Source: Streptomyces sp. ML-6 (GTDB lineage Bacteria; Actinomycetota; Actinomycetes; Streptomycetales; Streptomycetaceae). From it: a stretch of DNA of 64,000 nucleotides. Location: positions 1 through 64,000 of the forward strand of contig NZ_JAOTIK010000001.1 in the NCBI RefSeq assembly GCF_030116705.1. The letters run 5' to 3'. The translations under genes and the position numbers were made by a program. Each line of letters opens with the position of its first letter. Position 1 is the stretch's first letter. A model generated the notes under the pieces. The model did no database searches. It had not been told where the DNA came from and saw nothing but the letters and a program-made list of their open reading frames with translations. This document shows positions 16,777-61,397 of the stretch, piece by piece.

Positions 16777-19372
16777 CCAGGCGGGCTGCCGCATCGGCGG
16801 GGACACCGAGGGCGCGCGCCCGGGCCCGGGGCGTGGGGGTGCTGCAGGGGGTGAAGCGGTGGGCGCGCCCCGGGCGGTCCATGGCTGCGGGGCTGATGCT
16901 GCTGGTGCTGTCGTTCCTGGTGTCGCTGGTGCTGGCGGGCGTGTCGGCGAGCGCGGCCCCCACACCGACGCCGGCGCCTTCGCCTTCGGTGGGTCCGACG
17001 CTGCCCGGCCCGCAGAACCCGCTCGAGCCGAGCCCGCTCGTCCCCCAGCCGGGTACGTCGGGCCGGCCGGATGACTCCCCGCTGATCCGGGACGGGATCA
17101 AGGAGGCCGAGAAGGAGGAGAAGGCCGCCCGCGCCGAGTTCGACAAGCTGGTGGAGAAGTACAAGAAGGACCGGGCCGCGCAGGGCGGGGTGCTGTCCGC
17201 GTTCGAGGTGACCGACCGGGACGGGAATCCGGTCAGCTCGTACCGCATCTACTCCGACACCGGGGACTGGAACGACTGGGACCTGAGTGTGCAGGGGTTC
17301 CTCGTCGAGATGATGTTCATGGGGAACAAGTGGATCGTCAGCTTCGCCTGCTTCCTCTTGACCTGGAGCCTGGCGTTCTCCCTGGCCGGGCTGATGCTCA
17401 AGCCGGCGCTGCAGGTGTCGACGTCGCTGTACGGGAGCGTTGTCGTGCAGATGGGTCTGCCGGTGCTGTTCCTCACCTTCACGATGGTCGTCGCGTCGTG
17501 GCATCTGCTGTTCGGAAACCGGGTGCGCGGCTGGGGCGAGATGGCGGCTGCCCTGGTCATCTCCGCACTCGCGCTCGGTGCTCTCGCCTCTCCCCGCAGC
17601 TCCTGCTCAGCAAGGACACCGGGGTGGTGGGCGTGGTGCGGGACCTGGCGGTCGAGACCGCCGCCCTGGTCCTGGACAAGGAAGCCATCGACACGGCCCG
17701 GCCGACCACTGAGAGCGGATGGGAGAAGAAGCCGTCCGGGTCGACCGTGGGTGCGCAGGTCCGGTCCTCGCCGAGCGCGCTGGCCCGCCCCATCACCGAC
17801 GCCCTCGTGGACGCGTTCGTGGCCCGGCCGGCCATGCTCCTGTCCTACGGGCGGACCTTCGAGGGCAGGTGCGGGAAGAAGTTCCGCGATTCACGGGTCC
17901 AGCAGGCCGTGTTCGACCAGCTGGTCGACACCAAGATGGAGAAAGGCAAGTCCTTCCTCAAGGACCTGCCGGGCTTCGGGATCGCGCTGCCCGACAGCGT
18001 CAAGAACTGGATGGTCGACACCACCGTCGACGCCGCCACCTCCCAGATGCTGGAACAGGTCCACGCGTCCGGCCCCATCAAGGCGTTCGAGAAGGCCTGC
18101 GTCCAAAACGCCGGCACACTGAAGAAGGCGTCGATGGACAAGGTCGGCGGCGCGCTCTTCATGCTCCTGGCCGCGTTCCTCACCTGCATGTTCGTCATCG
18201 TCCTGGACGGTGCATTCCTCTTCGCCCAGCTACAGATCGCCATCGAGGCGATGATCGCAAAGGTGGCCCTCGCGGCGGGGATCCTGCCCGGCCCCGGCCG
18301 GGCCTGGCTGTGGGGCCGGGCCGCGGCCATCGCCCGCGGCCTCGCCCTGATGCTCGCCTCCATCGCCTCCATGTCCGTCTTCATCGTCGTCGTCAACGCC
18401 GTGCTGAACACACCGGAAAGCGACCTGCCGGGCGGTCTCACCGTCCGGTTCGTCCTTTTGGACTGCGTCTGCGTCGCCGCGTTCATCTACCGCAAGAAGC
18501 TCGCCCGCTCCACCCGCGGAGCGGTGGCACGCGCCCGTCACCGCCTCGGCAACTCGCCCCTGGGCGGATCCGTCTCCCCCGCCCCCGTCGACATGCCGAG
18601 GCGCGGCGGGCTCGGCAAGGGCCTGCTGCTCGGCGGGCTCATGCTCGGCGCGGCCGCCGCCACCGGGGGAACCGGTGCTGTGCTCGGCGGCGCCGGACGC
18701 ATCGGCTCCACCCGGCTCGCCGGACGCATCGGCGGCTGGCTCGCTCACGGCGGGGGCCGTGCCGTGGCGGGGCTGACCCGGCTCACCGGCCGCACCATCG
18801 AGGCCGGGGCGAAAGGCACCGTGAAGGCCGGGGTGTTCGGCCTCAAAGCCACTGTCGGACTGCCGGTGTACGGGCCGCGCGCGGCCCGCAGGGTCGGCGC
18901 GGCTGCGACCGCTCTGCCCGCCCAGGCCGCAGGCCGGGTCAGCAGCGCCGTCCAGAACCTCCAGCAGAGCGCGCAGAGTTTCCACCGGAGCTACGTCCAG
19001 CCCGCCCAGCAGTTCGCCGGGGAGTACCGGCACAACGTGCGCTCCCTCGGCCGGATCGTCCGGGGCCGGCCCGGGCTCGGCCCCTACACCCCGCCCCGGG
19101 CCGCTGTTCCCGGTCCCCGGCGGGCACCGGCGCCCCGCCCCGCCCGGCCGGCTCCTGCACCCCAGCCGGCCCCCGCACCGCCCGTCCGGCGGCGCCCTGC
19201 GCCGCCGCGCGTCGCCCAACCGCCCTCCAGCGCGGCCCAGGCCATGCTCCAGCAGCGCCTGCACCGCATGCGCCAGCCGCGGAACACCGGGAGCAGCACC
19301 CCGCCTGCGCCCGTCCCCTCCGCCCCTGCGCGTCGTTCGCAGGCCGCGCCGCGCCTGGGAGGGCGCTCATGA
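16773..19372 (+). CDS. VirB6-like polytopic membrane protein (one frameshift)
   Basis: The product would be about 866 aa. It has a signal/TM helix near residues 35-60 (AAGLMLLVLSFLVSLVLAG), an extracytoplasmic charged region, then several TM helices (KWIVSFACFLLTWSLAFSL, MGLPVLFLTFTMVVASW, GGALFMLLAAFLTCMFVIVL, SIASMSVFIVVVNAVL). The C-terminal tail is long, Ala/Pro/Gln-rich and basic. This fits the VirB6/TrbL channel component. The frame changes at about 17592: the sequence before ends ALALGALAS and resumes PQLLLSKDTGVV in the -1 frame. One more C in the CCCC there makes a single ORF. Confidence 0.75.
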
Positions 19373-20479
19373 GCGGCGCACGGAAAGTGGCCTTGGCCGT
19401 TTCCCTGTACTGGTTTCGGCTGTGGGTGTCGTCGGCGTCCTGGTGCTGTTCATTGCCGCTGTCGCAAACGGGGCGGCCGGACACGAGAAGGAGGCCGCCG
19501 CCCCGCCGTCCGTGTCCGGGGCGGCCCCGGGGCGGTGGCCGGCATCAGTCCGGTGATGCTGTCCGCCTACACCCGCGCCGCCGCGAACGTGCGCGCCCTG
19601 CGGCCGAAGTGCACGGGCATGCGGTGGTCCGTCATCGCTGGGATCGGCAAGGTCGAGTCCAACCACGCCTCCGGGCGCACCATCACAGTCGGCGGGGATG
19701 TCCGCCCGCGTATTCTCGGGGTCCGGCTCAACGGATCCGGGGCCGGGGGGAACACGAGCGTCTTCTCCGACACCGACCACGGCCGGCTCGACGGCGACAC
19801 CGCGTACGACCGGGCAGTCGGCCCCATGCAGTTCCTGCCCTCCACCTGGAACGGCCCCAGCGGCCAGGACGGAAACGGTGACGGGGTGAAGGACCCGCAC
19901 AACGCGTTCGACGCCGCGCTCGGAACCGCCGTCTACCTGTGCGGAACCGGGACCACCGACCTGTCCCGGACCGACCAGCTGCGCAAGGCGGTCTACCGCT
20001 ACAACCGTTCCGAGGCGTACGTGGGCGACGTCACCGGCTACGTCGACGAGTACGACCACCTCCCCGCCGCCCAAGACAGCACGGCGGGGTCGGCGACCGG
20101 CCGGGCCGGCGCCGTCGTCGACGCCGCGCTGGCACAGCGCGGCACTCCCTACGTGTGGGGCGGCGGCAGTACCACGGGCCCCACCAAGGGCGGCTACGAC
20201 TGCTCGGGCCTGATGCTCTACGCCTTCTACCAGGGCGCCCGGGTCACGCTTCCCCGCACCTCCCAGCAGATGCGGCACTCCGGTACCCGGGTCCCCCGCT
20301 CGCAGATCCGGCCCGGCGACCTCATCGTCATCAACAACGACGGAAACTGGGGACACGTCGGCCTCTACACCGGCAACAACACCATGGTCCACGCGCCCCG
20401 GCCCGGAAAGACCGTCGAGACCACCTCAACGTCCGGGTACTGGGAGCGGTACGACTGGGACGTACGCCGAGTGCTATGA
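19369..20479 (+). CDS. Lytic transglycosylase / NlpC-P60 peptidoglycan hydrolase of the transfer operon (5' frameshifts)
   Basis: The enzyme opens the cell wall for the transfer channel. Residues after 19540 show a soluble transglycosylase-like domain (GIGKVESNH with a catalytic-type Glu, AVGPMQFLPSTW), then an NlpC/P60 domain with YDCSGLMLYAF (Cys), HVGLYTG (His) and HAP. Frame 19369 gives only the first residues. Adding one C at CCC near 19403 and one G at GGGG near 19530 gives a normal N-terminal anchor (VSAVGVVGVLVLFIAAVA) joined to the domain. Without these changes, a GTG at 19535 would make a protein with no export signal. Confidence 0.75.
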
Positions 20480-20697
20480 AGTCGTGTAGATTCTCATTGG
20501 AGATGTCGTTGTCTCAGTGTTCTGTCATCAACTTGTCGTCCAGCAGCCCGAGTTACAGGACGGGCTCGACGTAAACGACGAACGTCATCTCGGTTCGAGA
20601 ACCAGCCTTTCGCTTGGTTTTCCATGCCTTCCGTGCAGATTCCCGCTGGCCACGCGCCATCGTCCCGGTGTCGGTTCCGCCTACACAAGGGGTCGCT
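20480..20697. other. Probable left end of the Tn7-like transposon
   Basis: This stretch between the conjugation operon and tnsA is AT-richer than its neighbours and holds no gene. It contains repeated TGTCGT-type motifs: TGTCGTTGTCTCAG near 20505, TGTCGTCCAGC at 20534-20544 and an inverted relative near 20573-20590. These are plausible TnsB binding sites. The exact terminal bases and a target duplication were not identified. Confidence 0.35.
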
Positions 20698-21448
20698 GTG
20701 GCACGCGCTTCGAGCCAGAAGAGCACGACAGAAGGTGAGACGGTCTCGGTCCGCTACCGGCAAGCGGATGGCCAGTTCGTTGAAGCGGTCCTGGACCGCC
20801 TCATCGTTCCCGAGGTGACCGGCGGCCTGCCGGTACGGGATTTCCGCTGGTACAAGGGCCGTCGTCATTACTCGGGCTGGTACCACGCCGCCACAGTGGG
20901 GCGGCTGGTGGCCTACGAGAGCCGGTTGGAGCTGGCTCGGATTCTGCTGGCCGATTTCGACCGCGGTGTCGTGGAGATCGCCTCCCAGCCCTTCCAGCTG
21001 GCCGGTCGTGACGGTGACCGGCTTCGGCGGCACATCCCTGACCTGCTGCTTGTCCACTCTGACGGTCTGGTGACCGTCGTCGATGTCAAAGCCCCTCACG
21101 CATGAAGGACCCGAAAGTGACTGCACAGTTCGCCTGGACGAAGCGCATCTGCGCTCGTCGCGGCTGGTCCTACGAGACCTGGTCGGGCGGCGATCGGGCC
21201 GTGGTGGAGAACGTACGGTTCCTCGCGGGCTACCGGCGCCCTCAGCTGCTGGAGATGGACCGGGCGCCGGCAGTGCTCGCGGCGGCCCGGGGCCAGTCGA
21301 CCATCGGCGGCATCGAGGCGGCCCTGGCCGCTCGGTTTCCGGCACATGCGGTCCGTCCGCTGGTGCTGCACCTGATCTGGTCGGGAGCCCTGGTCGCGGA
21401 CCTGCGGCGCCCCTGGCGGCGGCCACCTCGATCGAGGTGGCGTCATGA
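20698..21448 (+). CDS. tnsA: TnsA-like transposon endonuclease (two -1 frameshifts)
   Basis: TnsA cuts the 5' ends of the transposon together with TnsB. The start is GTG at 20698 behind AAGGGG. The catalytic-type residues are visible: Glu in YESRLELARILL, Asp in RRHIPDLLLV, and VDVK. The first frame stops at 21105 just after VDVKA. The C-terminal domain (MKDPKVTAQFAWTKRI ... LHLIWSGALVADLRRP) is in the -1 frame from 21102. A second shift at CCCC near 21410 is needed to read LAAATSIEVAS and the stop at 21446-21448. One extra C in each CCCC rebuilds a normal protein of about 250 aa ending in ATGA overlap with tnsB. As read, it would be two polypeptides joined by an ATGA stop-start. Confidence 0.7.
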
Positions 21449-23499
21449 CCGGCCGGGCAGTGACCGTCTTCCCGGGGGTGCGGCTGCTCTACTGCGGCGA
21501 CGTGGCCGAGGTTGTCGAGCTGGAAGGACTCACGGCCACGCTGCGCAACGAGCGGACGGGTGAGTTCAGCACACTGCCGCTCGGGCGGTTGGCGGCCGAC
21601 GCCCGGTCCCTGGGGGCGGGGAGTGAGCCGGAGACGCAGGATGGGTCTGTCCTGCTGGCGAACCTGTCCCCGGCCCGGCGGGCGAGGCTGCATGAGAGGG
21701 CTCGGCATGTCCGGGAGGTGCTGACCGGCTTCCGAGCCGGGCACCCGGACGGCGCCGCGGCCGACGAGCCGCGCCCGCAGTTCCAGCCGGATCTGCCGCT
21801 CGGGGACCGCACCGCGGCCAAGGCGACGGAGCTGAAGGTCTCACCTCGGACGATCGACCGGTGGGTGGCTGCCTACCGTGAAGCAGGCGAGGCCGGGCTG
21901 GTGGACGCCCGAGCCGTCAAGGGCCGGGGTTCGCGGGTGGATCCGCGCTGGGAGGAGGCCCTGCGCTGGGTGCTGGCCGAGTTGGTGAACGCCTCTACCC
22001 CCACCCGGTCCGCGGTGCTGCGCCGCACCGAAGATCGACTGGAAGAGGAGTTCGGGGCCGGGACGGTGCCTCTTCCCTCGCGCGCTACGGCCTACCGGCG
22101 CCTGGCGGAGCTGACGAAGGGCACGAGCGCGGTGTCCGGCAGTGCCAAGTCCCGCCGCTCGATCGCGGACCGGCCCCGCGGCGCCTACGGTCGGCTGCGG
22201 GCGACGCGGCCGGGTGAGTACGTGGTGCTCGACACGCAGGACCTGGACATCTACGCGATGGAGCCGGTCACCTGCCGCTGGGTTCCCGTCCAGCTCACTG
22301 TCGCCCAGGACCTGTTCTCCCGCTGCATCGTGGGCCTGCGGGTGACAGCGTGCTCCACCAAGGCGGTCGACGTCGCCGGGGTGCTGTTCGAAGCCGTCTG
22401 CCCGCCCATGGACACTGCGGACCGCCCCGAGCTCGCTCCCTATCACGGGCTGTGGGACCACGTGGTGTTCACCGAGGAGGACGCGGTTCCCGGGCGGGGG
22501 CTGTGTCCGCCGGAGACGCTGGTCGTCGACCACGGCAAGGCATTCATGTCGGCCCACGTGATCAGTGTCTGCACCCGGCTGGGCATGTCGATCCAGCCTG
22601 CCCAGCCGAAGAAGCCCACCGACAAGCCAACCGTCGAGCGCTTCTTCCGAACGCTGCGGGAGGGGCTGATCCAGCATCTGCCCGCCTACAAGGGCCCGGA
22701 CATCCACAGCCGCGGGGAGAGGATCGAGGACCAGGCGTTCTTCTACCTCCACGAGGTCGAGGAGATCGTCCGCGAGTGGATCAGCGAGGTGTTCCACCGC
22801 CGCGCCCATGAGGGACTCACCGTCCCGCACTGGCCCCACCTGCAGTTGTCCCCGCTGGAGATGCTCCGCGTCGGAGTGCACCGGGCCGGACGGCTGCGGA
22901 TGCCCGCCACCGCCGAGCTGGCCTTCGAGTTCCTGCAGGTCAGGCCGCGCACCATTCAGCACTACGGCGTCGATGTCGACGGGCTGCGTTACAACGGGCC
23001 CGCGCTGGACGGGCTGCGCGGGACGACGAGCCCCTACGGCGGGCGTCTGGCCGGGCGGTGGCCGATCCGCGTCAACCCCGACGACGTGCGGTTCGTCTAC
23101 TTCCAGGACCCCGACGACGGCTCCTGGCATGCCCTGGAATGGGAACACGCTCCCGCGCTGAACATGGCCTTCAGCACCGAGGCCGCCGCCTACGCCCGGC
23201 GGCTGGCCGCCCGCACCGGACGGCACATCGATGCCTCGAAGGCTCTGGGAGATCTGCTGGCCCGCTGGGACCAGGGGCTGGTCACCGACCGCCGCGAGCG
23301 TCGCATGGCGGTGCGGCTGTCGGCCGAGCGGGCCGCGCTGTCCCTGCCCACCCTGCCGGACCAGGCCACGGCCACGAGCCGGCCGGAGCTGACGGTGGTG
23401 CCAGATCCTCCCCTCGGCGACAGCGACGACGAGGACGAGCTCTTCGATGCCCCGCAGGGCGAGGACTACTACGCCGATGCCTTCGAGGTGATCGAATGA
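21445..23499 (+). CDS. tnsB: TnsB-like DDE transposase
   Basis: This 684-aa protein joins the transposon 3' ends to target DNA. An N-terminal HTH region (ATELKVSPRTIDRWVAAYREAGEAGL) is followed by an RNase H-fold integrase core with Asp in VVLDTQDLD (about residue 263), Asp in LVVDHGKAF (about 362) and Glu in PTVERFFRTLREGL (about 398). A Mu-type C-terminal beta-barrel follows (RFVYFQDPDDGSWHAL), then an acidic tail that may contact TnsC. The full length is open with no frameshift. The start overlaps the tnsA stop and the stop overlaps the tnsC start (ATGA). Confidence 0.9.
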   Translation: MTGRAVTVFPGVRLLYCGDVAEVVELEGLTATLRNERTGEFSTLPLGRLAADARSLGAGSEPETQDGSVLLANLSPARRARLHERARHVREVLTGFRAGHPDGAAADEPRPQFQPDLPLGDRTAAKATELKVSPRTIDRWVAAYREAGEAGLVDARAVKGRGSRVDPRWEEALRWVLAELVNASTPTRSAVLRRTEDRLEEEFGAGTVPLPSRATAYRRLAELTKGTSAVSGSAKSRRSIADRPRGAYGRLRATRPGEYVVLDTQDLDIYAMEPVTCRWVPVQLTVAQDLFSRCIVGLRVTACSTKAVDVAGVLFEAVCPPMDTADRPELAPYHGLWDHVVFTEEDAVPGRGLCPPETLVVDHGKAFMSAHVISVCTRLGMSIQPAQPKKPTDKPTVERFFRTLREGLIQHLPAYKGPDIHSRGERIEDQAFFYLHEVEEIVREWISEVFHRRAHEGLTVPHWPHLQLSPLEMLRVGVHRAGRLRMPATAELAFEFLQVRPRTIQHYGVDVDGLRYNGPALDGLRGTTSPYGGRLAGRWPIRVNPDDVRFVYFQDPDDGSWHALEWEHAPALNMAFSTEAAAYARRLAARTGRHIDASKALGDLLARWDQGLVTDRRERRMAVRLSAERAALSLPTLPDQATATSRPELTVVPDPPLGDSDDEDELFDAPQGEDYYADAFEVIE

Positions 23500-24053
23500 G
23501 GCAGCCGCATCTGTTCAGCCTCTCCCGCAAGGAGGGCTGGCGCCGCTTCGTCGACGAGCCGGCCCGGCAGCGCCCCGCGACCCTCACCCGGCGCCAGCTG
23601 GCGGCCCTGGGCGAGGAGGCGGCCGAGGACTACAACGACGCCCGGCACGACTGGCATGCCAACTTCGGCATCGTGCAGACACCCCAGCTGGCCTCCGTCC
23701 ACGATGCGTTGGACGAGATCGTCGCGTCCAACCGGCAAGACGGCGACCGCATCCGTTCCGCGGCCGTCATCGACGCCCTGCCGGGTCTGGGCAAGACCAC
23801 CATCGCCAACCTCTTCGGCCGCACCTTCGACCGCCAGCAGATGCGCCGCCTGGGCCAGGTCACCGACGCCGGGCACGAGCGCATCCCCGTCTTCCGTGTC
23901 GGGCTGACCTCCAACACCACACTGCGGACCCTGAACCGGATGATCTGCGAGTTCTACGGCCACCCGGCCGCCGACCGCGCCAATGCCGCCACCTTGGCCA
24001 GTCACGCGCTCGACTGCGTTCTATCCTGCGAGTCCCAGCTGGGGATCATCGAC
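23496..24053 (+). pseudogene. tnsC: TnsC-like AAA+ ATPase, 5' part (gene interrupted)
   Basis: These are the first 186 codons of the transposition regulator. Walker A is VIDALPGLGKTTIANLFGR near residue 89. A conserved HANFG segment precedes it, and RVGLTSNTTLRTLNRMICEFYG follows. The sequence stops at ...SQLGIID, the first half of Walker B; the next bases are the terminal repeat of the inserted Tn554-like element. The frame then runs into FTDRP and a stop at 24069-24071. The remainder of the gene is found at 31320-31826, 7.27 kb away. Confidence 0.85.
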
Positions 24054-24132
24054 TTTACCGACCGCCCGTAGTCCTGCCCGTGATGTCCGTCTGGGACTGT
24101 GACCAGCACGTCCTGGGCTTGTTTACCGACCG
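24054..24132. repeat. Left terminal repeat of the Tn554-like element, two direct copies
   Basis: TTTACCGACCG occurs at 24054-24064 and again at 24122-24132, 68 bp apart. The first abuts the tnsC sequence. These are candidate recombinase arm or core sites; the region between them is non-coding and leads into tnpA. Confidence 0.7.
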
Positions 24133-24176
24133 GGTCCGGGACGTCTGTCATGTTCTGGAGTCGGTACGGAGGACAA

Positions 24177-25355
24177 GTGGTACGGCACGTTGTGGTGGGG
24201 GACCTGAGGGTCCAGCGGATCGAGCGGAAGGACGGGCAGCGGTCATGGACGATCGTCTGGCCCGAGGGAACACTGCACGCGGAGGCGGACCGGTTCCTGC
24301 GTGAGCACGAGGGCTCGGGCACGCAGAGGACGTACGCGTACTACCTGGTGGACCACCTGCGGTGGCTGGAGCGCGAGTGCCTGGCCTTCGACACGGTCCA
24401 ACTGCGTGACCTGGAACGGTATATGGGGATCGTCGGCGCCGAGGTCCGCATACCGCTCGGGGAACCGTGGCGGGTGGGCAAGCGCCCCTACGGCCGCTCG
24501 GCGCTGTCGACCGCGGCGGCCTGCTTGAAGGGCTTCTACCTGCAGCAGGCTTCTCGCGGCATCAACGGCGAACTCGGCAAGAAGCTCGACAAGTCCCGTC
24601 TGCCGACGCGGGCCGACAAGCGCCGCTCGTTCCTCGGGCACGTGAAGAACAAGCTGCCGACCAACCCACTGGCACCGAAGGGGCCGCACCGCCGGCACCC
24701 GAAGATGCTGCCGGAAAAGGCCAGGGAGAGGCTGCTGGGGACAGTGAACGCCGCCCGGGACCGGCTGGTTATCGACTGGCTCGCCGACGGCGGACTTCGG
24801 ATCGGCGAACTCTGCGGGCTGCACCTGGTCGACCTGCACCTGCGCGAGAACGCGGCCTGCGGCGAGTGCCGCACCCCGCACCTGCACGTCTGCCACCGGC
24901 CCGGCAACCCGAACCGGGCCGAGGCCAAGACCAAACATCCCTGGCGGGTCGAGCGCGGGACGGTGACCGGCGGGCTGATCAAGCGGGTCAGCCCGGCGAT
25001 GGTGCACTCCTACTTCGAGTACATGACGACCGAGTACCCGCGGGGCGCCGGGCACGGCATGCTCCTGGTCCAGCTGCACGGCGCCGATAGCGGCCAGCCG
25101 TGGGCTCCGGTCGGCGCCCGCCGGATGCTCGGCCGGGCCGGGAAACGCGCCGGGTTGGGGCTGGTGAAACCCCATGCCTTCCGGCACACCTTCACCTCGG
25201 CGGTTCTCGATGCCGCGGACGGCAACACCCTGATCGCCCGGGACGCCGGCGGCTGGGCGTCGGCCGCGATGGTCGATGAGGTCTACGGGCACGTCGATGT
25301 CCACGACCCGGTCTTCGATGCCGCGCTTCGCACGGTCTGGGGTGAGACGAAGTGA
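24177..25355 (+). CDS. tnpA: TnpA-like tyrosine recombinase
   Basis: This 392-aa protein starts at GTG 24177 after GGAGG at -5. Residues about 35-150 form the SAM-like arm domain (GSGTQRTYAYYLVDHLRWL). The catalytic domain shows Arg in ADGGLRIGELCGLHLVD, HAFRHTFTSAVLD, a GGWAS helix and the tyrosine in VDEVYGHVD. It contains a CGECRTPHLHVCHRP cysteine/histidine insert typical of the Tn554 TnpA group. It is the first gene of a tnpA-tnpB-tnpC operon; its stop overlaps the tnpB start. Confidence 0.85.
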   Translation: MVRHVVVGDLRVQRIERKDGQRSWTIVWPEGTLHAEADRFLREHEGSGTQRTYAYYLVDHLRWLERECLAFDTVQLRDLERYMGIVGAEVRIPLGEPWRVGKRPYGRSALSTAAACLKGFYLQQASRGINGELGKKLDKSRLPTRADKRRSFLGHVKNKLPTNPLAPKGPHRRHPKMLPEKARERLLGTVNAARDRLVIDWLADGGLRIGELCGLHLVDLHLRENAACGECRTPHLHVCHRPGNPNRAEAKTKHPWRVERGTVTGGLIKRVSPAMVHSYFEYMTTEYPRGAGHGMLLVQLHGADSGQPWAPVGARRMLGRAGKRAGLGLVKPHAFRHTFTSAVLDAADGNTLIARDAGGWASAAMVDEVYGHVDVHDPVFDAALRTVWGETK

Positions 25356-27971
25356 CCGCGAACTCGCTGCTGCCCCTCTACACCGAACGTTCCGACCGCG
25401 AGGGCCGTGACAGGCTGGAGATCCTCACCGCGCTGATCAGTGCCCCTTTTTCGACCCGATCTTCCGTGGAGTACTCGTCCGGGTTCCCCAAGACCACTCC
25501 GTCTACCAGTGGGGATGCGTCGTCGGCGCCTGCGAACGCGTCCGCTCCGGAGGGACGGACCTGTGCTCCAACCATCTCCGGCAGTGGGGAAAGGCGCGGG
25601 AATCGGGCACGACCCGGGCGGAGTTCCTCACTGCGGCACAGCCGCTGTCCCGGGCCGAGTTCGAGCGCGAGGGCCCGTGCTCGATCTGCCCCGATCGGCC
25701 GGCGGAGCCGCGAACCGACCTGCGGTTGTGCCGCGCCCACTACAGCTCCTGGAAGTACTACGTCGCCCCGCGCGATTCCGGGGCGGACTTTGAGCAGTGG
25801 GCTGCTGAACAGGAGCCCCGCGGGGGTTACGGCAACTGCAAGGTCACGGTCTGCCCCGGGCTGGCGGAGTCGCCGCTGGGTTTGTGCAGCTGGCACTGGC
25901 ACCGTTACAAGCGCGACCGCCGCCCCGGCGGGGCGGCCCTTCCGGCCAGCTGGTGGCAGCGATACGAGAGCCAGGGACGCTCCGTCCCCGTCTCCTGCAC
26001 GGACGAGAACGCCTTCCGCACCTGGTGCGCGAGGGTCGATCCGGCCCCGAGGCCGGGACTGGTCAACCTGCGCGGTCTGCGGCCGCTGCTGCGAGCCGAG
26101 ATCCAGTACACCCTGTTCGCCCACACCCAGCAGGACCGGCACAGCATCTGGCGCCTGGACTGGATCCAGAAGCTCGTCAACCTCGCGCGAGAGCGCGACG
26201 CCGGCTCGCTGACCGACCTGGACTTGGACGACTTCCCGCGGTTTCACACCTCGATTGTGAAGAAGATGCTCCACTACCTGCGGCTGGTCTACTTCACCCC
26301 GAGCAGACGCGGGACGCCGGGTTCCTCGAGACCGACCACTTCGGCATCCGCTTCCCTCACCGGGCCAGCCACATCGACCTGACCCGCATCACCCAGCGCT
26401 GGCTGCGTGACCTGCTCTGGGACTACACCGCCGAGCTCATCCGCTCGCCCCACCGCCCACGCACCGCAGTGCCCATCGACGGCATCCGCCGGGCCTGCAC
26501 CGAGCTGAGCGCGTTCATAGAGGTCGACGCCCCCGGCGGCGGCCACGACCCGAGCGCCTTGCGGGTGGAGCACATGCACCGGTTCATCGCCGATCAGCGC
26601 CATCGTGAACGCCACGGGCTGCCCTCGCTGGTGATGAAGGGGCTCTACGGAAAGCCGTCGACGGTCACCTCCGTCACCCGCACCGACGTGTTCAACGGCG
26701 TCCGCAAGCTGCTGCGGAACGCGATGGAGAACGGCGCCGCCGAACGGCTCGGCCTGGACCGCGAGTTCATCATCGCCATGCCATTCGCCGGCGGCGAGCC
26801 GCTGCGAGCCCGGCGTCCGTTTCCCGACGAGGTCGCCCGAGCCCTGGCCGACGAGGCCAACCTCGCCCAGCTCACAGAGCAGTACGACCCCGATGACCAG
26901 GGGATGCGGGACGTCTGGGAGACCATCGTGCTGACCGGCCGCCGCGTGAACGAGGTCCTCAAGCTGCGCTGGAACTGCATCGGCCGCTACGGCGGCCTGC
27001 CGATGTTCTGGCACGACCAGACCAAGGTCGGCAACTACGACACCGCAATCCGTATCCCCGACCGGCTCTACGACCTCCTCGCCGAACGGCAGCGCAAGAC
27101 ACTGGACCGGTTCGTCGCCCGGCACGGACGCCGCCCGACCGGCACCGAACGCGCTCAGCTTGCCCTGTTCACCAGCAAGGTCCGCAACCCCGACGGCGCT
27201 ACCGCTCTGTCCTACCAGTGGTTCCACCGAAGGTTCCGGGAGTGGGCCACCGAGCTCGACCTCGGCCAGCTCGTCCCCCATCAGGCTCGCCACACTCTGG
27301 CCACCAGCCTGCTTCGGGCCGGGGCGAGCCTCACCCACATCCGCCGCTATCTCGGCCAGGTCTCGGACCGGATGGCCGAGCACTACGTCCACCTGACCAG
27401 CGAAGACCTGGAGAACGTCCTCCAGCACGTCTGGGTCACCGGCCCCGGCACCGCCCAACCCGGCGAACTCCTCGCCGGAGAGACCACCCCACTCACCCGA
27501 GAGCAGGCCCAGGCCCTCGCCATCGACCTCTCACGCCGCAGCACCCCCTCCGAGGGCGGGTTCTGCACCTTCCAGCCCGTCGTCGACGGCGGCGCCTGCC
27601 CCTGGAACCTCGACTGCCACAACTGCGACAAGTTCGTCCTCTCCGGCGCCGACCTCCTCTACTGGCGGCGCAAACGCGAACAGTGGCGGCTGCTGGCCGA
27701 AGGCGCCCCGGACGACGCGATCGCCGACTATCTCCACCGCTACTTCGAGCCCACAGCCCGCGCCATCGACGGCCTGGAGAAGGCCCTGGTCGGCCTCGGC
27801 CTCCTCGGCGACGCCCTCGCCCTTGACCTGCGCAAACCCCAGGACTACTTCCACCGCGTGTGGTCCACGGCCTTCCGCGCCGCCGACCTCGCCGACGCGG
27901 GCGACGACGAGCAGAGCGAGTACAGCGATACGTGCACAACCGACAACGACCCCGAGCAGGACATCGCATGA
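25352..27971 (+). CDS. tnpB: TnpB-like large tyrosine recombinase (two frameshifts)
   Basis: The protein starts at GTG 25352 (LLPLYTERSDREGRDRLEIL) and needs two -1 corrections: at the CCCCTTTTT near 25444 and at CCCC near 26303. The rebuilt product is about 870 aa. It begins with several Cys pairs (CVVGACERVRSGGTDLC, CSICPDRPAEPRTDLRLC, CKVTVCPG) that look like zinc-binding modules, then an arm domain and a catalytic domain with TGRRVNEVLKLRW, HQARHTLATSLLRAG and tyrosine in MAEHYVHL. A Cys-rich block (CPWNLDCHNCDKF) follows. It works with TnpA in excision and integration. Its stop overlaps the tnpC ATG. Confidence 0.8.
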
Positions 27972-28555
27972 AGACCTCTGCCGTTCCAGAACCCCGCACG
28001 GCCGCCGCCCTGGCCGCCCGCCGCCACAAGACCGAGACCGCCCTGAAGCGGGTCCGTGAAGCCATCATCCGGCTCCGGCGTGAGAAGGCCCAGGTCAGCG
28101 TGACCGCCGTCGCCCGTCGAGCGGACGTCTCCCGCACCTTCCTCTACGACAATCCCGAGGCCAGAGCCGTCATCGCCTCCGCGATGGCCGAGGCTGGAGA
28201 GCGCCGGACCCAGTTGCTCGCCGACCAGGGCGAGGAACGTGAGGCGACCTGGCGTGAACGCGCTCTGAATGCCGAAGACGCCCTCAAGACCGCTCACAGC
28301 GAGATCCTCGCCCAGCGGAATCGCATCGGTGAACTCATCGGCCAGGTGCGGGACTTGGAGGCCGAATGGGCCGAGGAGGCCGTCCAGCGGATCACTACCG
28401 AGAACACCACCCTCAAACAGCGAGTCCGTCAGCTCACGGCCGACAACCGCAGCCTTGACGAGCGGCTCAAGGCGGCCCGCTCCAACCTCCGCTTCCAGGA
28501 CCGCCGCGTCGCTGACCTCGAAGCCCGGATCGTTGACCCAGCGTCAGGCATCTGA
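27968..28555 (+). CDS. tnpC: TnpC-like / DUF6262-type coiled-coil accessory protein
   Basis: This 195-aa protein starts at ATG overlapping the tnpB stop. An N-terminal HTH-like part (AQVSVTAVARRADVSRTFLYDNPEAR) is followed by a long coiled coil from about residue 75 to the end (EILAQRNRIGELIGQVRDLE, TENTTLKQRVRQLTADN). It matches the third gene of Tn554-type recombinase operons, an accessory factor that affects the orientation or efficiency of transposition in that family. Confidence 0.8.
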   Translation: MKTSAVPEPRTAAALAARRHKTETALKRVREAIIRLRREKAQVSVTAVARRADVSRTFLYDNPEARAVIASAMAEAGERRTQLLADQGEEREATWRERALNAEDALKTAHSEILAQRNRIGELIGQVRDLEAEWAEEAVQRITTENTTLKQRVRQLTADNRSLDERLKAARSNLRFQDRRVADLEARIVDPASGI

Positions 28556-28578
28556 CCTCGCCTTCGCTCTTCCGGCCT

Positions 28579-28612
28579 CATGGCCCGTTCTCCGTCCGGT
28601 GGACGGGCCATG
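28579..28612. terminator. Terminator between tnpC and the defence pair
   Basis: CATGGCCCGT (28579-28588) pairs perfectly with ACGGGCCATG (28603-28612). It sits between the convergent tnpC and HNH genes and can serve both. Confidence 0.65.
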
Positions 28613-28640
28613 TCGGCGTACACGTGAAAGTGGCCTGCAG

Positions 28641-29483
28641 TCACTCCAGGAATCCTCCGTTACAGAAGGCACCATCCGCTGCGAGGGTCCGGTAGGTCAC
28701 GCCTTCCCACCCGTTGGGTTGGACAGCGAGTCGAGTGGCGGCTTCGGCCGCGAGGTATTCGTGCACGAGCTCCTTGCCGCCAGCCTTGAACTGTCCTTCG
28801 AGGGTGTGTTGGATGTTCCTCAGGGTCCGGTTGGCCTGCACTGCGTAGGTCTTCGCCAACCCGAACATAGTGAAGTGGTGCGTGGCCCGGGCTATGAGGC
28901 CCTGCCCCCATGTTGGTGGCGGGGTCACGAAGAACTCCAGCCGCACGGGGGCGTCGTGAATGACTTTGGCCTGCAGCCAGGTCACGTCGTCGATACGGTC
29001 GAGATACGGGTGTAAAGGTGTGGTCTCAACCGTGGTCGGCTTTTGATCGCCTTTGATGTGGTTGCAGTCGCTGCAGGCTGGCACCAGATTGAGTGGGGCC
29101 ACGCAAAGAGCGGGGAAGGACATCTTAGGCAGGACGTGGTCGAGCTGACGGACGGTTCCGTGCCCGCACAGGGGGCACCTCTCGTCGACGGGGGCGCCCA
29201 TGAGCTTGTCATAGATTAGGCGGCCCTTTTTGGTTCCCCGCATCCCGTTCTCGTACGCCCAGGTCACGGCGGCCTTGTCGTCGATGCCTGGAACCTTGAA
29301 CTCGGCGGCTTCCAGGGCGTGCAACGTCTGGCTGTGGGCTGCTTCCCGGAAGCGCTCTCCTGCAGCTTCGACGGCTTCGGCCGCGGCTGTCAACTTCTCT
29401 TGCCGACTGGTGTCCCGGGTGCTGCTCACACATGCGTCGTAGCTCTCGCGGGCTGTCTCGGCGGGGGGCTCCAGCGGCCACAT
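28641..29483 (-). CDS. ptuB: HNH endonuclease, PtuB-like (Septu-type defence)
   Basis: This 280-aa protein has a zinc-ribbon HNH core near residues 120-165: CPLCGHG, then QLDHVLPKMSFPALCVAPLNLVPACSDCNHIKGD. The DH pair and two CxxC motifs are present. Upstream is a helical region (TAAAEAVEAAGERFREAAH). Its ATG overlaps the stop of the ATPase gene (TGATG), so the two are translationally coupled. In Septu systems an ATPase (PtuA) controls an HNH nuclease (PtuB) that degrades nucleic acid on phage infection. The assignment rests on architecture only; PtuB proteins are usually somewhat shorter. Confidence 0.65.
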   Translation of the reverse strand: MWPLEPPAETARESYDACVSSTRDTSRQEKLTAAAEAVEAAGERFREAAHSQTLHALEAAEFKVPGIDDKAAVTWAYENGMRGTKKGRLIYDKLMGAPVDERCPLCGHGTVRQLDHVLPKMSFPALCVAPLNLVPACSDCNHIKGDQKPTTVETTPLHPYLDRIDDVTWLQAKVIHDAPVRLEFFVTPPPTWGQGLIARATHHFTMFGLAKTYAVQANRTLRNIQHTLEGQFKAGGKELVHEYLAAEAATRLAVQPNGWEGVTYRTLAADGAFCNGGFLE

Positions 29484-31041
29484 CAGCGGCTCTCTCCTGC
29501 GGCCTTGTCTGCGAGGAGGATCCGCACCAGCCCCTTGGCCTCGCCGCCCAGCTGGCCGCCGAAGTGGGCAAGGACTTCTTCGTAGGTGCCATGGGCCCTG
29601 ACCGCCCTTTTGACTTCCGCGTAGAAGCCGGACTCCTTCACCTCCAAGCCGAAGATCTCGTGTGTGAGGACACCGACGTTCTCACCGAAAGTCTCGATGG
29701 TGGGCCGCTCGGCCTGACGGTTGCCCCAACGGCTCAGTTTCCAGATGCAGGAGCGGGGGACCTCTTGGAGGACGACAGGGGAGTGGGTGGCGATGACCGC
29801 GACTGCGTTGCGGTCATCCATCAGGTACGACAACGTCCTGATGAAGGAAGATAGGAGCGGTGGGTGCAGGTGGGCCTCGGGTTCGTCTAGGAGCACCAGG
29901 GACTGCTCGGCCACGAGCGTGGCCAGCTTCGTGATGGTCAGCAGCACGATCGAGTGGCCTGAACTGAGTTGGCCAAAGATCCTTCGGGCTGCCTCTTGAT
30001 CGCTCTCCGTGAATGTCTGTGGCGACTGCTCACGGAGGCGTCGAGCGAAGTCATGGACGGGGAGGCGGCGAAATGCGGGTCACTGCTCAGAATGCGCAGG
30101 GCATGGACCCACCGTCCGAGCCGTCCGGCCGCCCAAACCTCTTTGAGGCAACTGGCGAACTCCGAGCCCAGTTGTTCATGTGATTTGGGCTCGCCGAGGT
30201 TGTTCCCAGCGCTAGCGAGCCCCACGTACGCGTACGTGGTCGCTGCGTGGTCGGGGTCGCCAACCACACTGACGAAGGGGTCGAAGGCACTGAAGGTGAC
30301 GGAGACGACGTTGACGAAGGGTTCACCGTCCTCCGCGGTGGGGGTGGGGAGGTGTTCGATTCGGCCGGCATTGACGTCGGCGCGGTCAGGGTGGACGGCC
30401 GCTTGGGCCATGTTGCGCAGCAGGGTGGTTTTGCCGACTCCGTTGCGTCCGATCAGGACGTGAATGTTGCTGGACGGGGTGGTGCGGGGGGTGACCACGA
30501 AGCTGAGTGGCGGGGGCGGCGGGACGTCGCTGTCTGGCGCGGGAACGAGGTAGTTGAAGCGGTACTCGGTGAGCCGGGAACCACCGCTGGCGATGCGCTT
30601 GAACTGGGCCATGACCGTACGCTTCTCGACGCTGCGCAGCAGCGAGAGGGCCGTCACGTCGTATTGGAGGGCGAAGTCCAGACGCTTTGATGAGAGAGCG
30701 ATATCACCCAGTCCGATGAGGATCTCCAAGCGTACCTGGGTGCCGAGTTTCCTGATGCTGTCGTAGTACAGGTCGTCTTGGCCCAGGGAGAACAACTCGG
30801 GCCTGCGGAGGGAGTCAAGGTGCTCGAACTGCCCTACGGGGAGGGGACTGGGCCCCGGTTCCTGGGCGCCGAGGGCGATCTTGACGCGGCCCAGGCGCTG
30901 GATCTGTCTGTTTTCGTCCCGAAACCAGAGGTCGTAGCTGGTCTGGTAGCCGTGGTCGTCCCCGGCAACTGGGACGAGGATGGCTTCTTGGGGGCCTTCG
31001 TCCGACGGGGACTGTCGATCGGCTTGGACCACGAATCGCAC
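29483..31041 (-). CDS. ptuA: AAA/ABC-type ATPase, PtuA-like (one frameshift)
   Basis: The rebuilt protein is about 519 aa. The first frame (31041 to about 30050) holds Walker A in HVLIGRNGVGKTTLLRNM near residue 200. The second, in the -1 frame, holds FARRLREQSPQTFTESD, the ABC signature LSSGHSIVLL, Walker B LVLLDEPEAHLHPP, the H-loop ATHSPVV, and a C-terminal domain with YEEVLAHFGG. One extra C in the CCCC near 30060 (GGGG on the plus strand) joins them. It is first in the ptuA-ptuB operon; 278 bp upstream (31042-31319) hold its promoter. An OLD-like ATPase of other defence types is possible but the HNH partner favours Septu. Confidence 0.7.
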
Positions 31042-31308
31042 AGGGTCTCCTGGGAGCCACTCAGGGGCGCCGAGCCTTGACGAAGCGGATGCGGCGCCGG
31101 GACTCGTGAACGGTATCTGGTCCTGGGGCCTGGTAGCGGCGTGTATTCAACTGCCGTGAGTTGAGCCCGTTCATCAATACTCGGCTGAACTTCGGGGAGT
31201 ACGCGGACAGCCGTCTCACGAGACCACACAGACGAACGACAGCAACTCTCCATCACGGACATGTAGTCTATGAATCGTCGCAGTTCAGAGCCGGTTTCCG
31301 AGCTCCTG

Positions 31309-31319
31309 CGGTCGGTAAA
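31309..31319. repeat. Right terminal inverted repeat of the Tn554-like element
   Basis: CGGTCGGTAAA is the exact inverse of the left-end TTTACCGACCG. It is followed directly by CTGGAC and then the tnsC sequence reading DIHLLDTRTR. Confidence 0.8.
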
Positions 31320-31826
31320 CTGGACGACATCCACCTCCTGGACACCCGCACCCGCGTGGGCGCCGAGACGTCCGACCAGATGAAGTACCTGTCCGAACGT
31401 GTCGGCGCCACCTTCGTCTACGCCGGAGTCGCCGTCGAGGACTCGCCCCTGCTGAGCGGAATCCGCGGGGCGCAGCTGGCGGGGCGGTTCAAGCTCCTGT
31501 CCAACCCTCCCCTGGCATACGGGAGTCGGGAGCAGCAGGCAGCGTGGCGCGGGCTGCTGGACGGCATGGAGAACGCGCTGCGTCTTGAGCGGCACCGTCC
31601 CGGATCGCTGGGGCGCATGGCCCGCTATCTGCACGAGCGCACCGGCGGGCGGCTCGGGAGTCTGTCCGCGCTGATCCGCGAAGGAGCGATCACCGCGATT
31701 CTGGACGGCACCGAGAAGATCACCAAGAAACAACTCGATGCCGTCCGTCTCGACCATCTCGCTGAGCAGGATGCACGGCCCCCAGCCGAGCAGGCCCCGT
31801 CCGGCCACTCCCGGACGGCCGCCTGA
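31320..31826 (+). pseudogene. tnsC: TnsC-like ATPase, 3' part
   Basis: This is the continuation of the gene broken at 24053: LDDIHLLDTRTRVGAETSDQMKYLSE completes Walker B, then FVYAGVAVEDSPLL (sensor I-like), GRFKLLSN, and a C-terminal helical domain (RYLHERTGGRLGSLSALI). The reading frame is open upstream into the inserted element, which could give a GTG/ATG-started fragment without Walker A. Together with 23496-24053 it makes about 352 codons, the usual TnsC/TniB size. Confidence 0.85.
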
Positions 31827-31924
31827 ACAGCACGTACTCGCCCCTGCCTCTTGTTCTGCTTGTTTGGTGGACGTCCCCATCTGCGGGCGTCCACCGGCCA
31901 GTCGAAAGCTGACCTCACCACGCT

Positions 31925-33028
31925 ATGCCCCTGTCCCCACCTGTCCAAAGCCGCCTGGCCGCGGGCGCGATACGCACCGCGCCCCTCGAAGGCGAGACGA
32001 CCGCTTCATGGATCACCCGGTGCGCAGCCCGCTACCACCTGCCCGCAAGTCCTTACCTCCGAGCCGTCCTTCAGCAAGAGGGCCGCGCCACTGTGAGCGG
32101 CCGGAGCGCGCTGGGCGCCGAGCTCTACCTCAATGCCGCGGCCCGCGAACGCGTGGCCGCCTACAGCCGCATCGAGGAGCAGGTCCTGGCACGCGTACTG
32201 CCCGCCTGGCCGCTCGACCTGGATGTTCTACGGCACCACACCGGGCCGGCCGCGCACTGGCAGTCCCCCACCACGCACACGGCCGCGTCGGTCATGGCCG
32301 GGTGCCTCAAATGCACCGCACCACGCAGCCGCGGACAGCAGGTATGGCAGTACCGGGGCCGGCACCAGCGCGTCTGCCACACGCATCGCATCTGGCTCGT
32401 CGGCGGCGAGGCGGGCTACACCGGACCGACCCAGATACCGCTCGATCACCTGGGCCAACACGAAGCCGCCCGCATCCTGGCCGCACACCGACGCCACCAG
32501 GACCTCACCGACCCAGGCGGCATAGCCGCCGAGGCGTGGCTGTGGGCCCGCGGCACCATCCAACACCTCTACACCGACCAGAAATTGATGTCGGGCACTG
32601 TGCCGGTTTCGTGGAACAAGCGCCTTGACGCCCTGGCCGCACAGGCCGGTCGTATGGGCAAGGTGTGGCCGTGGTGGATCATCGCCCGCGACCTGGTCAC
32701 CTATCCCGAGACCTTCGCTCTGGCCGAAGCCCTCACCGCGATGACCGCGGACGCGGACGCGTACCAACACGCCGCAGCCGAAGAGCACTTGGCTGGCCTT
32801 CTGTCCGACGCACTCCGGACGAACACCGGCCCAGACCCCGCCGACGAGGCGGGAACCCTCGCTCGATGGCTCGCCCGACACGCACGCAGCGAACTACAGC
32901 GCTGGCTGAACAGCCGCCACGGCGACGCGAGCGCGGCACCCCTGCACGTGGCGCCCCTGACCTGGGCCCTCAAACGACACGCCGACCGTCAGGGCTGCGA
33001 GGCGGACGGGGTGTCCGGCCCGGTGTAA
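31925..33028 (+). CDS. tniQ: TniQ/TnsD-like target-selection protein
   Basis: This 367-aa protein begins LEGETTASWITRCAARYHL, the typical TniQ opening 'E...SWL.R.A'. It contains a zinc finger CLKC ... RGRHQRVCHTHRIWLVG (C-x2-C and C-x2-H) near residues 127-155, then a helical C-terminal part. TniQ proteins recognise the insertion site and recruit TnsC. It lies 98 bp after tnsC on the same strand. It ends 40 bp inside the convergent GNAT gene, a tight junction that suggests its last codons may be chimeric. Confidence 0.8.
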   Translation: MPLSPPVQSRLAAGAIRTAPLEGETTASWITRCAARYHLPASPYLRAVLQQEGRATVSGRSALGAELYLNAAARERVAAYSRIEEQVLARVLPAWPLDLDVLRHHTGPAAHWQSPTTHTAASVMAGCLKCTAPRSRGQQVWQYRGRHQRVCHTHRIWLVGGEAGYTGPTQIPLDHLGQHEAARILAAHRRHQDLTDPGGIAAEAWLWARGTIQHLYTDQKLMSGTVPVSWNKRLDALAAQAGRMGKVWPWWIIARDLVTYPETFALAEALTAMTADADAYQHAAAEEHLAGLLSDALRTNTGPDPADEAGTLARWLARHARSELQRWLNSRHGDASAAPLHVAPLTWALKRHADRQGCEADGVSGPV

Positions 33029-33888
33029 GAGAACCGGTACCCGGCGAAGTCGCCGACGTGGATGTATCCGAGGCGCTGATAGAGAGCGTTACTGGTGGGG
33101 TTGTCCGGGTCCGTGAACAGGACAACGTCCGTCGCGCCCGCGGCCAACGCGGCGCGGCTCGCCTCGGCGGTCACGGCGCCCGCGAATCCGCGGCCCCTCA
33201 GGTGGGATGGGGTGTAGACGGGGTCCAGCCGGATCATGCCGCCGACAAGCGAGGTCGTGGCTGCCATGGAGACGGGAGTGCCGTCCGAGGTATGCCAGAA
33301 CGTGAAGTGCCGGTCACCGAAACGCGAGTCGACCCAACGACCGGCATCGATCAAATCGATGGAGGACTGCTCTTTGACATCCACGCAGAACTCGCGGCAC
33401 CAGCGCACAACTTGCTCATGGTCTGTCCCGTCCGCGATACGCCCCTGTCCCTCGGGGCGGGGCTGCGGTGGGGTGAGCGTACCGAGACGGTAGAGGTGAG
33501 TCCGCCAGAAGATCTCCGATACTGCTCCTGTGCGCTGCTGCCATGCCCGTGCGAAAACGGTGGCGGTGTCGTGGTCCGCAATGACGTTCACCGGCAAGTG
33601 GCCCTGCCGGGTCAGACGGGCAGCGAGGCCATCGGCCTGCGAGGCAGAGAGCGGGGTAAGGCCCAAACGGCCACGCGGAGTGCGGTAGAAGATGGCGCGG
33701 ACCTCGCCTTGTGACGCAAACCAGCCGAAGACGGCCGCCTCGGCCTGTGCGCCTGTACCGCTGACACGCAGCTTCTCGATGTCCGTCAACGGCGTGTTGT
33801 GGAGAGCAGGCCGCGAGCGCAGAAAGTCCCCGGTGTGAGCGAGGAAGACATCGATGTCTTCAGTGAGTTGCCAGTCATCCGTGAGCAT
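32989..33888 (-). CDS. GNAT family N-acetyltransferase
   Basis: This 299-aa protein starts at ATG (33888). The C-terminal half is a clear GNAT domain: MAATTSLVGGMIRLDPVYTPSHLRGRGFAGAVTAEAS contains the acetyl-CoA loop RGRGFA, and NPTSNALYQRLGYIHVGDF the final strand-helix. The N-terminal half (residues 1-150) is a divergent GNAT-like or partner domain (SEIFWRTHLYRLG). The substrate is unknown. It is convergent with tniQ and overlaps its 3' end. The 195 bp upstream (33889-34083) hold no gene. Confidence 0.85.
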   Translation of the reverse strand: MLTDDWQLTEDIDVFLAHTGDFLRSRPALHNTPLTDIEKLRVSGTGAQAEAAVFGWFASQGEVRAIFYRTPRGRLGLTPLSASQADGLAARLTRQGHLPVNVIADHDTATVFARAWQQRTGAVSEIFWRTHLYRLGTLTPPQPRPEGQGRIADGTDHEQVVRWCREFCVDVKEQSSIDLIDAGRWVDSRFGDRHFTFWHTSDGTPVSMAATTSLVGGMIRLDPVYTPSHLRGRGFAGAVTAEASRAALAAGATDVVLFTDPDNPTSNALYQRLGYIHVGDFAGYRFSYTGPDTPSASQP

Positions 33889-34133
33889 GCTGCATGGTCC
33901 ACCAAGGCAGTAGCCCCACGCACCCCTCCGTGTGGGTTCCAGCACACGCTTCATACCCACACTCGGTAGAGCTGACCAGCCGCCCAACCAACCTGCACAC
34001 CCGCCACACCACACAAGCCACAGGCCTACGCGGCGCCCGCAGTGCACCACCAGGACGTCATCCCGCTGATCAGGAAAACTGACTGAACCGCCCCGGGTGA
34101 AGTGGAGACTCGATTTCATGAAAGGATCGAGTC

Positions 34134-34460
34134 ATGGCACGACCTTCCCGTTACCCGCTTGAGCTGCGCCGACGTGCGGTGCGCATGGTCGCCGAGGTCC
34201 GCGGCGACCACCCGACCGAGACCGCGGCCTTGCAGGCGGTGGTCGAGAAGCTGGACATCGGCTCCCGCGAGACGCTGCGGAACTGGGTCAAGCAGCACGA
34301 GATCGACGCCGGGCAGCGGCCGGGGACGACGACGGAGGAGTCCGCCCAGCTCAAGGCGTTGAAGAAGGAGAACGCCGAGCTGAAGCGGGCCAACGAGATC
34401 CTGAAGGCGGCGGCGTCTTTCTTCGCGGCCGAGCTCGACCGGCCACACACACGCTCGTAG
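34134..34460 (+). CDS. IS3-family transposase OrfA
   Basis: This 108-aa protein has an HTH/leucine-zipper layout: RYPLELRRRAVRMVAEVRGD, SRETLRNWVKQHEIDAG, then coiled coil LKALKKENAELKRANEILKAAASFFAAEL. It is the DNA-binding part of the transposase. OrfB continues in the -1 frame, so a programmed frameshift would make the active OrfAB fusion, as is usual in IS3. Confidence 0.9.
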   Translation: MARPSRYPLELRRRAVRMVAEVRGDHPTETAALQAVVEKLDIGSRETLRNWVKQHEIDAGQRPGTTTEESAQLKALKKENAELKRANEILKAAASFFAAELDRPHTRS

Positions 34461-35386: not shown

Positions 35387-35413
35387 GATCTCTACCGAAC
35401 CCGGGGCGGTTCA

Positions 35414-60067: not shown

Positions 60068-60094
60068 TGAACCGCCCCGGGTTCGGTAGAGATC

Positions 60095-61033: not shown

Positions 61034-61347
61034 TGTGGCCGGTCGAGCTCGGCCGCGAAGAAAGACGCCGCGGCCTTCAGGATCTCGTTGGCCCGCTTCA
61101 GCTCGGCGTTCTCCTTCTTCAACGCCTTGAGCTGGGCGGACTCCTCCGTCGTGGTCCCCGGCCGCTGCCCGGCGTCGATCTCGTGCTGCTTGACCCAGTT
61201 CCGCAGCGTCTCGCGGGAGCCGATGTCCAGCTTCTCGACCACCGCCTGCAAGGCCGCGGTCTCGGTCGGGTGGTCGCCGCGGACCTCGGCGACCATGCGC
61301 ACCGCACGTCGGCGCAGCTCAAGCGGGTAACGGGAAGGTCGTGCCAT
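61021..61347 (-). CDS. IS3-family transposase OrfA (copy 2)
   Basis: It has the same 108-aa protein sequence as copy 1. The copies differ by one synonymous base in the Thr-Thr-Thr codons. OrfB lies in the -1 frame. Confidence 0.9.
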   Translation of the reverse strand: MARPSRYPLELRRRAVRMVAEVRGDHPTETAALQAVVEKLDIGSRETLRNWVKQHEIDAGQRPGTTTEESAQLKALKKENAELKRANEILKAAASFFAAELDRPHTRS

Positions 61348-61397
61348 GACTCGATCCTTTCATGAAATCGAGTCTCCACTTCACCCGGGGCGGTTCA

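Follow-up and report, generated by a model that had tools for sequence, protein, structure and literature searches.

Contig C1 of Streptomyces sp. ML-6, whose genome comprises 9.1 Mb in five contigs, opens with the 64,000-nucleotide stretch analysed here (the window). The window contains a Tn554/Tsy-like mobile element with a tripartite recombinase at positions 24054–31319 (forward strand, 7266 bp). The element lies between two halves of tnsC, a gene of Tn7-like transposons. The N-terminal half (23496–24053, forward) ends with ...LGIID at 24053 and the C-terminal half (31326–31826, forward) starts with DIHLL at 31326; both boundaries are in the Walker B motif, as the initial annotation had placed them. 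Its description of an insert with matching terminal inverted repeats also holds. The left repeat, TTTACCGACCGC (24054–24065, forward), and the right repeat, GCGGTCGGTAAA (31308–31319, reverse), are perfect inverted copies of each other over 12 bp, and each 12-mer occurs only once within the window. The end sequence also recurs inside the element, as TTTACCGACCG, at 24122–24132 on the forward strand. At the junctions, six bases (the cores) lie beyond the element proper, ATCGAC on the left (24048–24053) and CTGGAC on the right (31320–31325). The genome has four copies of the element, one on each of contigs C1 to C4.

Three forward-strand genes follow the left end: tnpA (24099–25355), encoding a tyrosine recombinase of 418 amino acids; tnpB (25352–27971), encoding a large tyrosine recombinase whose N-terminal region shows Cys/His motifs, seen by pattern only; and a tnpC-like gene (27968–28555, start picked by eye). 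TnpA matches the integrase family PF00589, as does TnpB in its C-terminal part, and the third protein matches DUF6262 (PF19776). Pfam assignments are based on the family cut-offs, with absence judged at E 0.001; the families above cut-off were AAA_22 (N-terminal half of TnsC), TniQ, DUF6262 and phage integrase (two proteins). This is the three-gene set of Tn554-type elements, with two tyrosine recombinases. The operon had been described as complete and its three genes are present, but tnpB is broken twice in the window (at about 25442 and 26296) and the cargo ATPase gene once (at about 30058). A single tnpB frame of 875 codons is found on C2 and C3 only, the ATPase frame is continuous on C4, tnpA is broken on C3, and none of the four copies is fully unbroken. 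The copies disagree mostly by single-base insertions and deletions (indels) in homopolymers. Since the other copies differ at homopolymers at these positions, sequencing error is the simplest and likely reading of the frame breaks; decay was considered as the cause and, given this disagreement, was not adopted.

The remainder of the element carries two reverse-strand genes, for an HNH-type protein (28641–29483) and a PtuA-like ATPase (29483–31041). The frame-broken ATPase is assigned to PDC-M01A/PtuA by PADLOC (E 3.1e-80 and 1e-75 for its two pieces), the PtuA model scoring 5e-66. The HNH protein, whose motif was recognised by eye, matches PDC-M01B (E 8.6e-95) and no Pfam family; the 25 models displayed of its 43 are PDC-M01B (24) and PDC-M62B (one), and do not include PtuB. 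A comparison of the cargo with PDB sequences matched no solved structure, a marginal hit to a tautomerase (E 0.009) being regarded as chance. For the Septu-type pair that had been annotated, the PADLOC models support both members, the ATPase through PDC-M01A/PtuA and the HNH protein through PDC-M01B. From these profile matches the two proteins are probably a Septu-like anti-phage pair, and the cargo may be active in defence.

The genes flanking the element follow the TnsA-TnsB-TnsC/TniB-TniQ order, which is also annotated in uninterrupted relatives, although the fourth gene of the NBC_00998 operon is annotated as hypothetical. Upstream are tnsA (20614–21448, forward; partial profile match to NF033179, TnsA_like_Actin), apparently frame-broken with copies differing at 21094 and 21409, and tnsB (21445–23499, forward; TnsB by PADLOC); downstream is tniQ (31925–33028, forward; PF06527). 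When the two tnsC halves are joined, the frame is open and encodes 352 amino acids, a normal size, as had been noted. However, the halves are of two types. The N-terminal half (AAA_22 above cut-off, TniB below) matches the TnsC protein P0121 at 92% and P0241 at 31%, whereas the C-terminal half matches P0241 at 91% and P0121 at 39%; we refer to these types, and to their transposons, as A and B. The C-terminal half has no Pfam family, so its identity rests on its relatives. Relatives of the joined protein read DIHFIDLDRRDG after ...GIID, where the window reads DIHLLDTRTRVG, and a search with the C-terminal half alone uncovered the second tnsC group. Among 240 listed relatives (the best 120 from each of two protein searches, some of them partial), 120 match the N-terminal half over at least 60% of its length, 29 match the C-terminal half by the same measure, and none matches both; the relative that comes nearest to doing so reaches 69% and 46%, respectively. 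A pre-existing A/B hybrid tnsC was likewise sought among these relatives and not found.

A rank test leads to the same separation. In three related insertions used as controls (L038, L050 and L063), both tnsC halves favour the same references, with ranks from 1 to 13 among 267, whereas the corresponding ranks for the window halves are 185 and 200; three further loci (L052, L070 and L085) lack a close reference and are uninformative. The operon also switches type at the element, which argues that the halves are not one gene. TnsB is 75% identical to its type-A counterpart in S. virginiae and only 31–32% to two type-B proteins, and TniQ is 78% identical to the TniQ of L158, which is encoded beside a 98% relative of P0241. 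Judged by their closest relatives, the tnsC halves in the window come from the genes of two different transposons. The initial annotation had proposed one tnsC split by the insertion, and had set beforehand, as the outcome that would overturn this, that the halves belong to different genes; that is what the comparisons with relatives found. An in-frame join across an insertion therefore does not prove a single original gene.

The matching arrangement is present on contig C3, which matches the window at 99.9% identity up to and including the element's final base; the differences are indels and one substitution, and there are no substitutions inside the element. Beyond it, C3 carries a type-A C-terminal half (81–91% to five type-A relatives; 91% to S. 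virginiae) and a long TniQ, 56% identical to that of S. virginiae. The element on C3 is thus flanked by matching A halves. A linear plasmid of S. virginiae has an uninterrupted tnsC, with ATCGAC directly followed by GACATCCAC at the empty A site, and its DNA match to the left flank of the window stops exactly at 24053. By this comparison, insertion at the Walker B codons holds for gene A. The element end also adjoins the same codons of gene B. Because the matching A half on C3 directly follows a substitution-free copy of the element, two tnsC genes appear to have been hit. The type-A C-terminal half occurs only once in the genome.

Contigs C1 to C4 start with the same 31–34 kb, with mostly homopolymer-indel differences. 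The end block that the window has in common with C2 and C4 spans 1–34084; it reaches 34162 and 34164 on those two contigs, after which they diverge, while on C3 it stops with the element's final base. On C1 it is truncated by the first of two copies of an IS3-type element (34084–35415 and 60068–61397, recognised by eye), a truncation specific to this contig. It is possible that these four starts represent the termini of two linear replicons.

Related insertions were surveyed in other genomes. Of 7997 candidates scored in a protein search, 1073 were relatives of TnpA, and of 295 genomes in the genus, 109 have some TnpA match, often a distant one. The genome scan confirmed 93 stretches, of which 78 loci were kept (L115–L144, which overlap with the scan, are outside the tally). 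The left end was found in 76 of these, with up to three substitutions allowed, such that some (for example L072 and L098) are probably wrong; its first 10 bp, TTTACCGACC, are exact in 48 and recur about 45 bp 5′ of tnpA. Right ends with no or one substitution were accepted at 44 places, window included, several of them doubtful (such as L072, L080, L098 and L110). A 13-base end pattern was found in 34 of 392 genomes, and was not used because a reversed control gave similar chance counts in many genomes.

The last in-frame codon before the left end specifies an acidic residue in 53 of the 76 loci, a count made without a shuffle control. Insertions in tnsC or tnsB account for 16 of the 76. In seven (L038, L039, L050, L052, L063, L070 and L085; the first two from the same genome), a tnsC profile match stops exactly at the left end. 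Insertion of a Tn554-like element at the tnsC Walker B codons is observed in these loci and for gene A on C3, although not as one split gene in the window. The tnsC match of L109 is 2 bp off the left end, and L067 is assigned by motif only. The family is also found within Tn7-like tnsB genes, in both orientations and at nine loci: a TnsB match ends at the left end in the sense direction in L055, L058, L065, L066 and L112, and in the antisense direction in L054, L056, L061 and L069. The left flanks of L089–L093, L097, L100 and L104 are comM-like (with Pfam support for L092, the only one checked), that of L078 is weakly ATP-grasp-like, and HAD-like DxD and PD-(D/E)xK-like flanks recur, read by eye and without a Pfam match. 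Pfam gave no family for the HAD-like and nuclease-like target halves of L043, L103 and L060 or for the TnsB piece of L066. Although their target genes are unrelated, the relatives sit at comparable codons, acidic and within catalytic motifs. When the target labels are placed on a tree of 45 TnpA rows, they require 14 changes compared to a shuffled mean of 30.6 (none of 200 shuffles as low), a clustering that near copies inflate; the tree excludes rows whose match or translation was short. The tnsC label changes four times, three of which are forced by well-supported branches.

Defence cargo is not the rule among the relatives, as far as the 17 scanned of 36 listed frames (at least 150 amino acids, from 26 loci) represent them. 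PADLOC matched, among 10 cargo proteins at E 1e-5, only the three of L080. These form a Lamassu-like trio (L080:14532–18060; LmuA, LmuB and LmuC models) at a locus whose right end is uncertain. Pfam, applied to 10 proteins, gave the APH fold (L038 and L060), nucleotidyltransferase, aldo/keto reductase, alpha/beta hydrolase, a winged-helix regulator and, weakly, M48 peptidase, with three lacking a family. Cargo is generally small, since 23 of 28 perfect-repeat elements, window included, are only 4.58 to 6.60 kb long.

The cores may be a legible record of where a copy came from. In strand-biased circularizing and Tn554-related elements, the six bases left of the donor element end up on the right-hand side of the newly inserted copy, whereas the target keeps its own six bases on the left (PMC10214605). 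The flanks observed here are compatible with such footprints. The left core, ATCGAC, is that of the empty A site, and the right cores of the genome copies differ, being CTGGAC in the window and GTCGAC on C3; we interpret the former as the footprint of an earlier donor site. The native core of intact B-type genes is GTCGAC in L158, L159, L161, L146 and L147, GTTGAC in L160 and ATCGAC in L162. As C3 combines A's own core on the left with, on the right, the native core of most B-type genes, the cores suggest that the element moved from a B-type gene to A. CTGGAC is unlike any of the native B cores listed, and gene B therefore most likely carried an element copy of its own.

We propose that the hybrid arose by two insertions and a crossover, a reading to which we assign a probability of roughly 0.65. 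A Tn554/Tsy-like element, with TnpA, TnpB and a DUF6262 TnpC, would insert at conserved positions within genes, in this case at the aspartate codons of Walker B in tnsC of Tn7-like transposons. It would have entered, in succession, two such genes, A (the matched halves on C3) and B, and the near-identical 7.3-kb copies would then have provided the homology for a single crossover, linking the 31-kb terminal arm with the A half to the B half and replacing B's own end. The exchange would be homologous rather than recombinase-mediated, and the joined end would now be located at the starts of C1, C2 and C4. TnsC function would presumably have been lost. A terminal position of B is consistent with B-type operons that adjoin linear plasmid ends (NBC_00557, where tnsA is at nucleotide 734, and NBC_00998). 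Of 150 genomes, 26 (own included) have a match to the TnsC protein P0241 at 1e-80; in five of them (G005, G047, G066, G082 and G090) a more distant relative (50–57%) lies no further than 30 kb from where contig 1 begins, and in others the match lies elsewhere. The TnsA-TnsB-TniB operons of L146 and L147 begin less than 1 kb from linear Streptomyces plasmid ends.

Several observations weigh against this proposal. A genome search for the N-terminal half of B gave only 30–48% matches to that of P0241, one of which (47%) is a separate TnsC relative located at C1:5518325–5519197, and the parental B-left arm is absent from the assembly. The window TniQ is only 32–35% identical to the TniQs of the less close B-type plasmid operons L146 and L147. 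The cores of the 26 perfect-repeat pairs, on which our statements about cores rest, agree in 12 and disagree in 14, and cores alone are weak evidence; GTCGAC is moreover common, occurring also at HAD-like targets, so the B-to-A direction is suggestive only. Finally, a misjoin through the 7.3-kb repeat could produce identical contigs, and the near identity of the 31-kb arms on four contigs is possibly an assembly habit.

Such a misjoin is less likely than the recombinant, but has an appreciable probability. The real ends would be A-element-A and B-element-B, with the assembler crossing between identical elements and the short B-left ends being lost. The break does occur exactly at the end of a 7.3-kb substitution-free repeat, the copies show many homopolymer differences in the assembly, and a B-left arm resembling NBC_00557 (tnsA 734 bp from the plasmid end) would be short. 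Yet the identical join is present on three contigs, the genome search revealed no close B N-terminal half, and telomere turnover is reported in Streptomyces, where telomere exchange between chromosomes and linear plasmids has been proposed (PMC7205883). It is improbable that TnpABC instead catalysed a site-specific exchange at A's right end, joining it to that of B or to an empty B site: this would explain why the identity between C1 and C3 ends at the last element base, but homologous recombination anywhere inside the element yields the same break, and an empty B site should have left GTCGAC, native in most B relatives, rather than CTGGAC. We give almost no credence to a single tnsC split in the window and reject it. 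The open joined frame of normal length speaks for it; the two tnsC types with no relative matching both halves, the different references that the halves rank and the change of type across the operon speak against it.

Left of tnsA, the region 14185–20479 is apparently a conjugation-type module (ATPase, membrane protein and NlpC/P60 protein, identified by eye), and the S. virginiae plasmid (L145) likewise has an NlpC/P60 gene in this position. A GNAT-like acetyltransferase frame (32989–34119, by eye) lies between the type-B tniQ and the end of the shared block.

These insertions show a mobile element that uses the regulator gene of another mobile element as its attachment site. It is plausible, as had been suggested, that the insertion immobilises the host transposon while installing immunity. 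We put forward, tentatively and with less than even confidence, that elements with a tripartite recombinase repeatedly disable Tn7-like transposons through tnsC and tnsB codons, and also provide portable homology for the exchange of telomere arms carrying a defence system. Different lineages would then attach at conserved tnsC and tnsB codons, and identical copies in replicon-end transposons would let chromosomes and linear plasmids swap arms. A shared insertion in two transposons would be a concrete route by which the linear replicons of Streptomyces-like bacteria could exchange arms.

The element appears to work like Tn554 and Tsy, a likeness drawn from the descriptions of those elements. 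Tn554 and its relatives in Staphylococcus and Enterococcus (tnpABC) similarly have two tyrosine recombinases and TnpC, target specificity, a 6-bp donor footprint at the right end and, in the account given of them, no apparent mobilisation genes (PMC10214605). In contrast to the imperfect terminal repeats described for Tn554 in that paper, the repeats here are perfect over 12 bp; the present element is actinobacterial, targets conserved codons of several genes and encodes a TnpB of 875 amino acids with Cys/His motifs, compared by description. Tsy, and Tn6022 with its TnsF, encode a tyrosine recombinase, a second recombinase with a zinc-finger-type N-terminal region and a small third protein, and their insertion at the Walker B codons of the AAA+ ATPase gene comM has been shown experimentally (Faure et al. 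2023, PMC10293859). Walker B targeting by such an element is therefore known for comM. For tnsC as the target, which the initial annotation took to be undescribed for a Tn554-like element with a defence system, no report appeared among the papers listed by our searches of the open-licence PMC literature. The target here is tnsC, and in relatives tnsB, HAD-like genes and others; inverted repeats, described as undetected in the passages of PMC10293859 on Tsy, are present, and the small gene lies downstream. A GIY-YIG protein, another point of difference from Tsy, was not found among the element proteins scanned (tnpB and the ATPase in part).

The cargo resembles Septu (PtuA/PtuB) and the PADLOC candidate PDC-M01 in its adjacent ATPase and HNH genes, the ATPase scoring with both PtuA and PDC-M01A; it differs from Septu in its HNH protein, for which PtuB is not among the models displayed and no solved structure matches. 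Literature searches listed no paper on "telomeric transposons". Nesting of mobile elements in Tn7-like transposons is well known in general (PMC8649781); what appears to be new is that one family recurrently uses tnsC and tnsB as targets and that its element has joined two transposons. Tn7-like transposons at the ends of linear Streptomyces replicons share the TnsA-TnsB-TniB-TniQ-type operon near plasmid ends (NBC_00557 and NBC_00998), but the operon in the window differs from them in combining parts of two transposons and in being interrupted by a further element.

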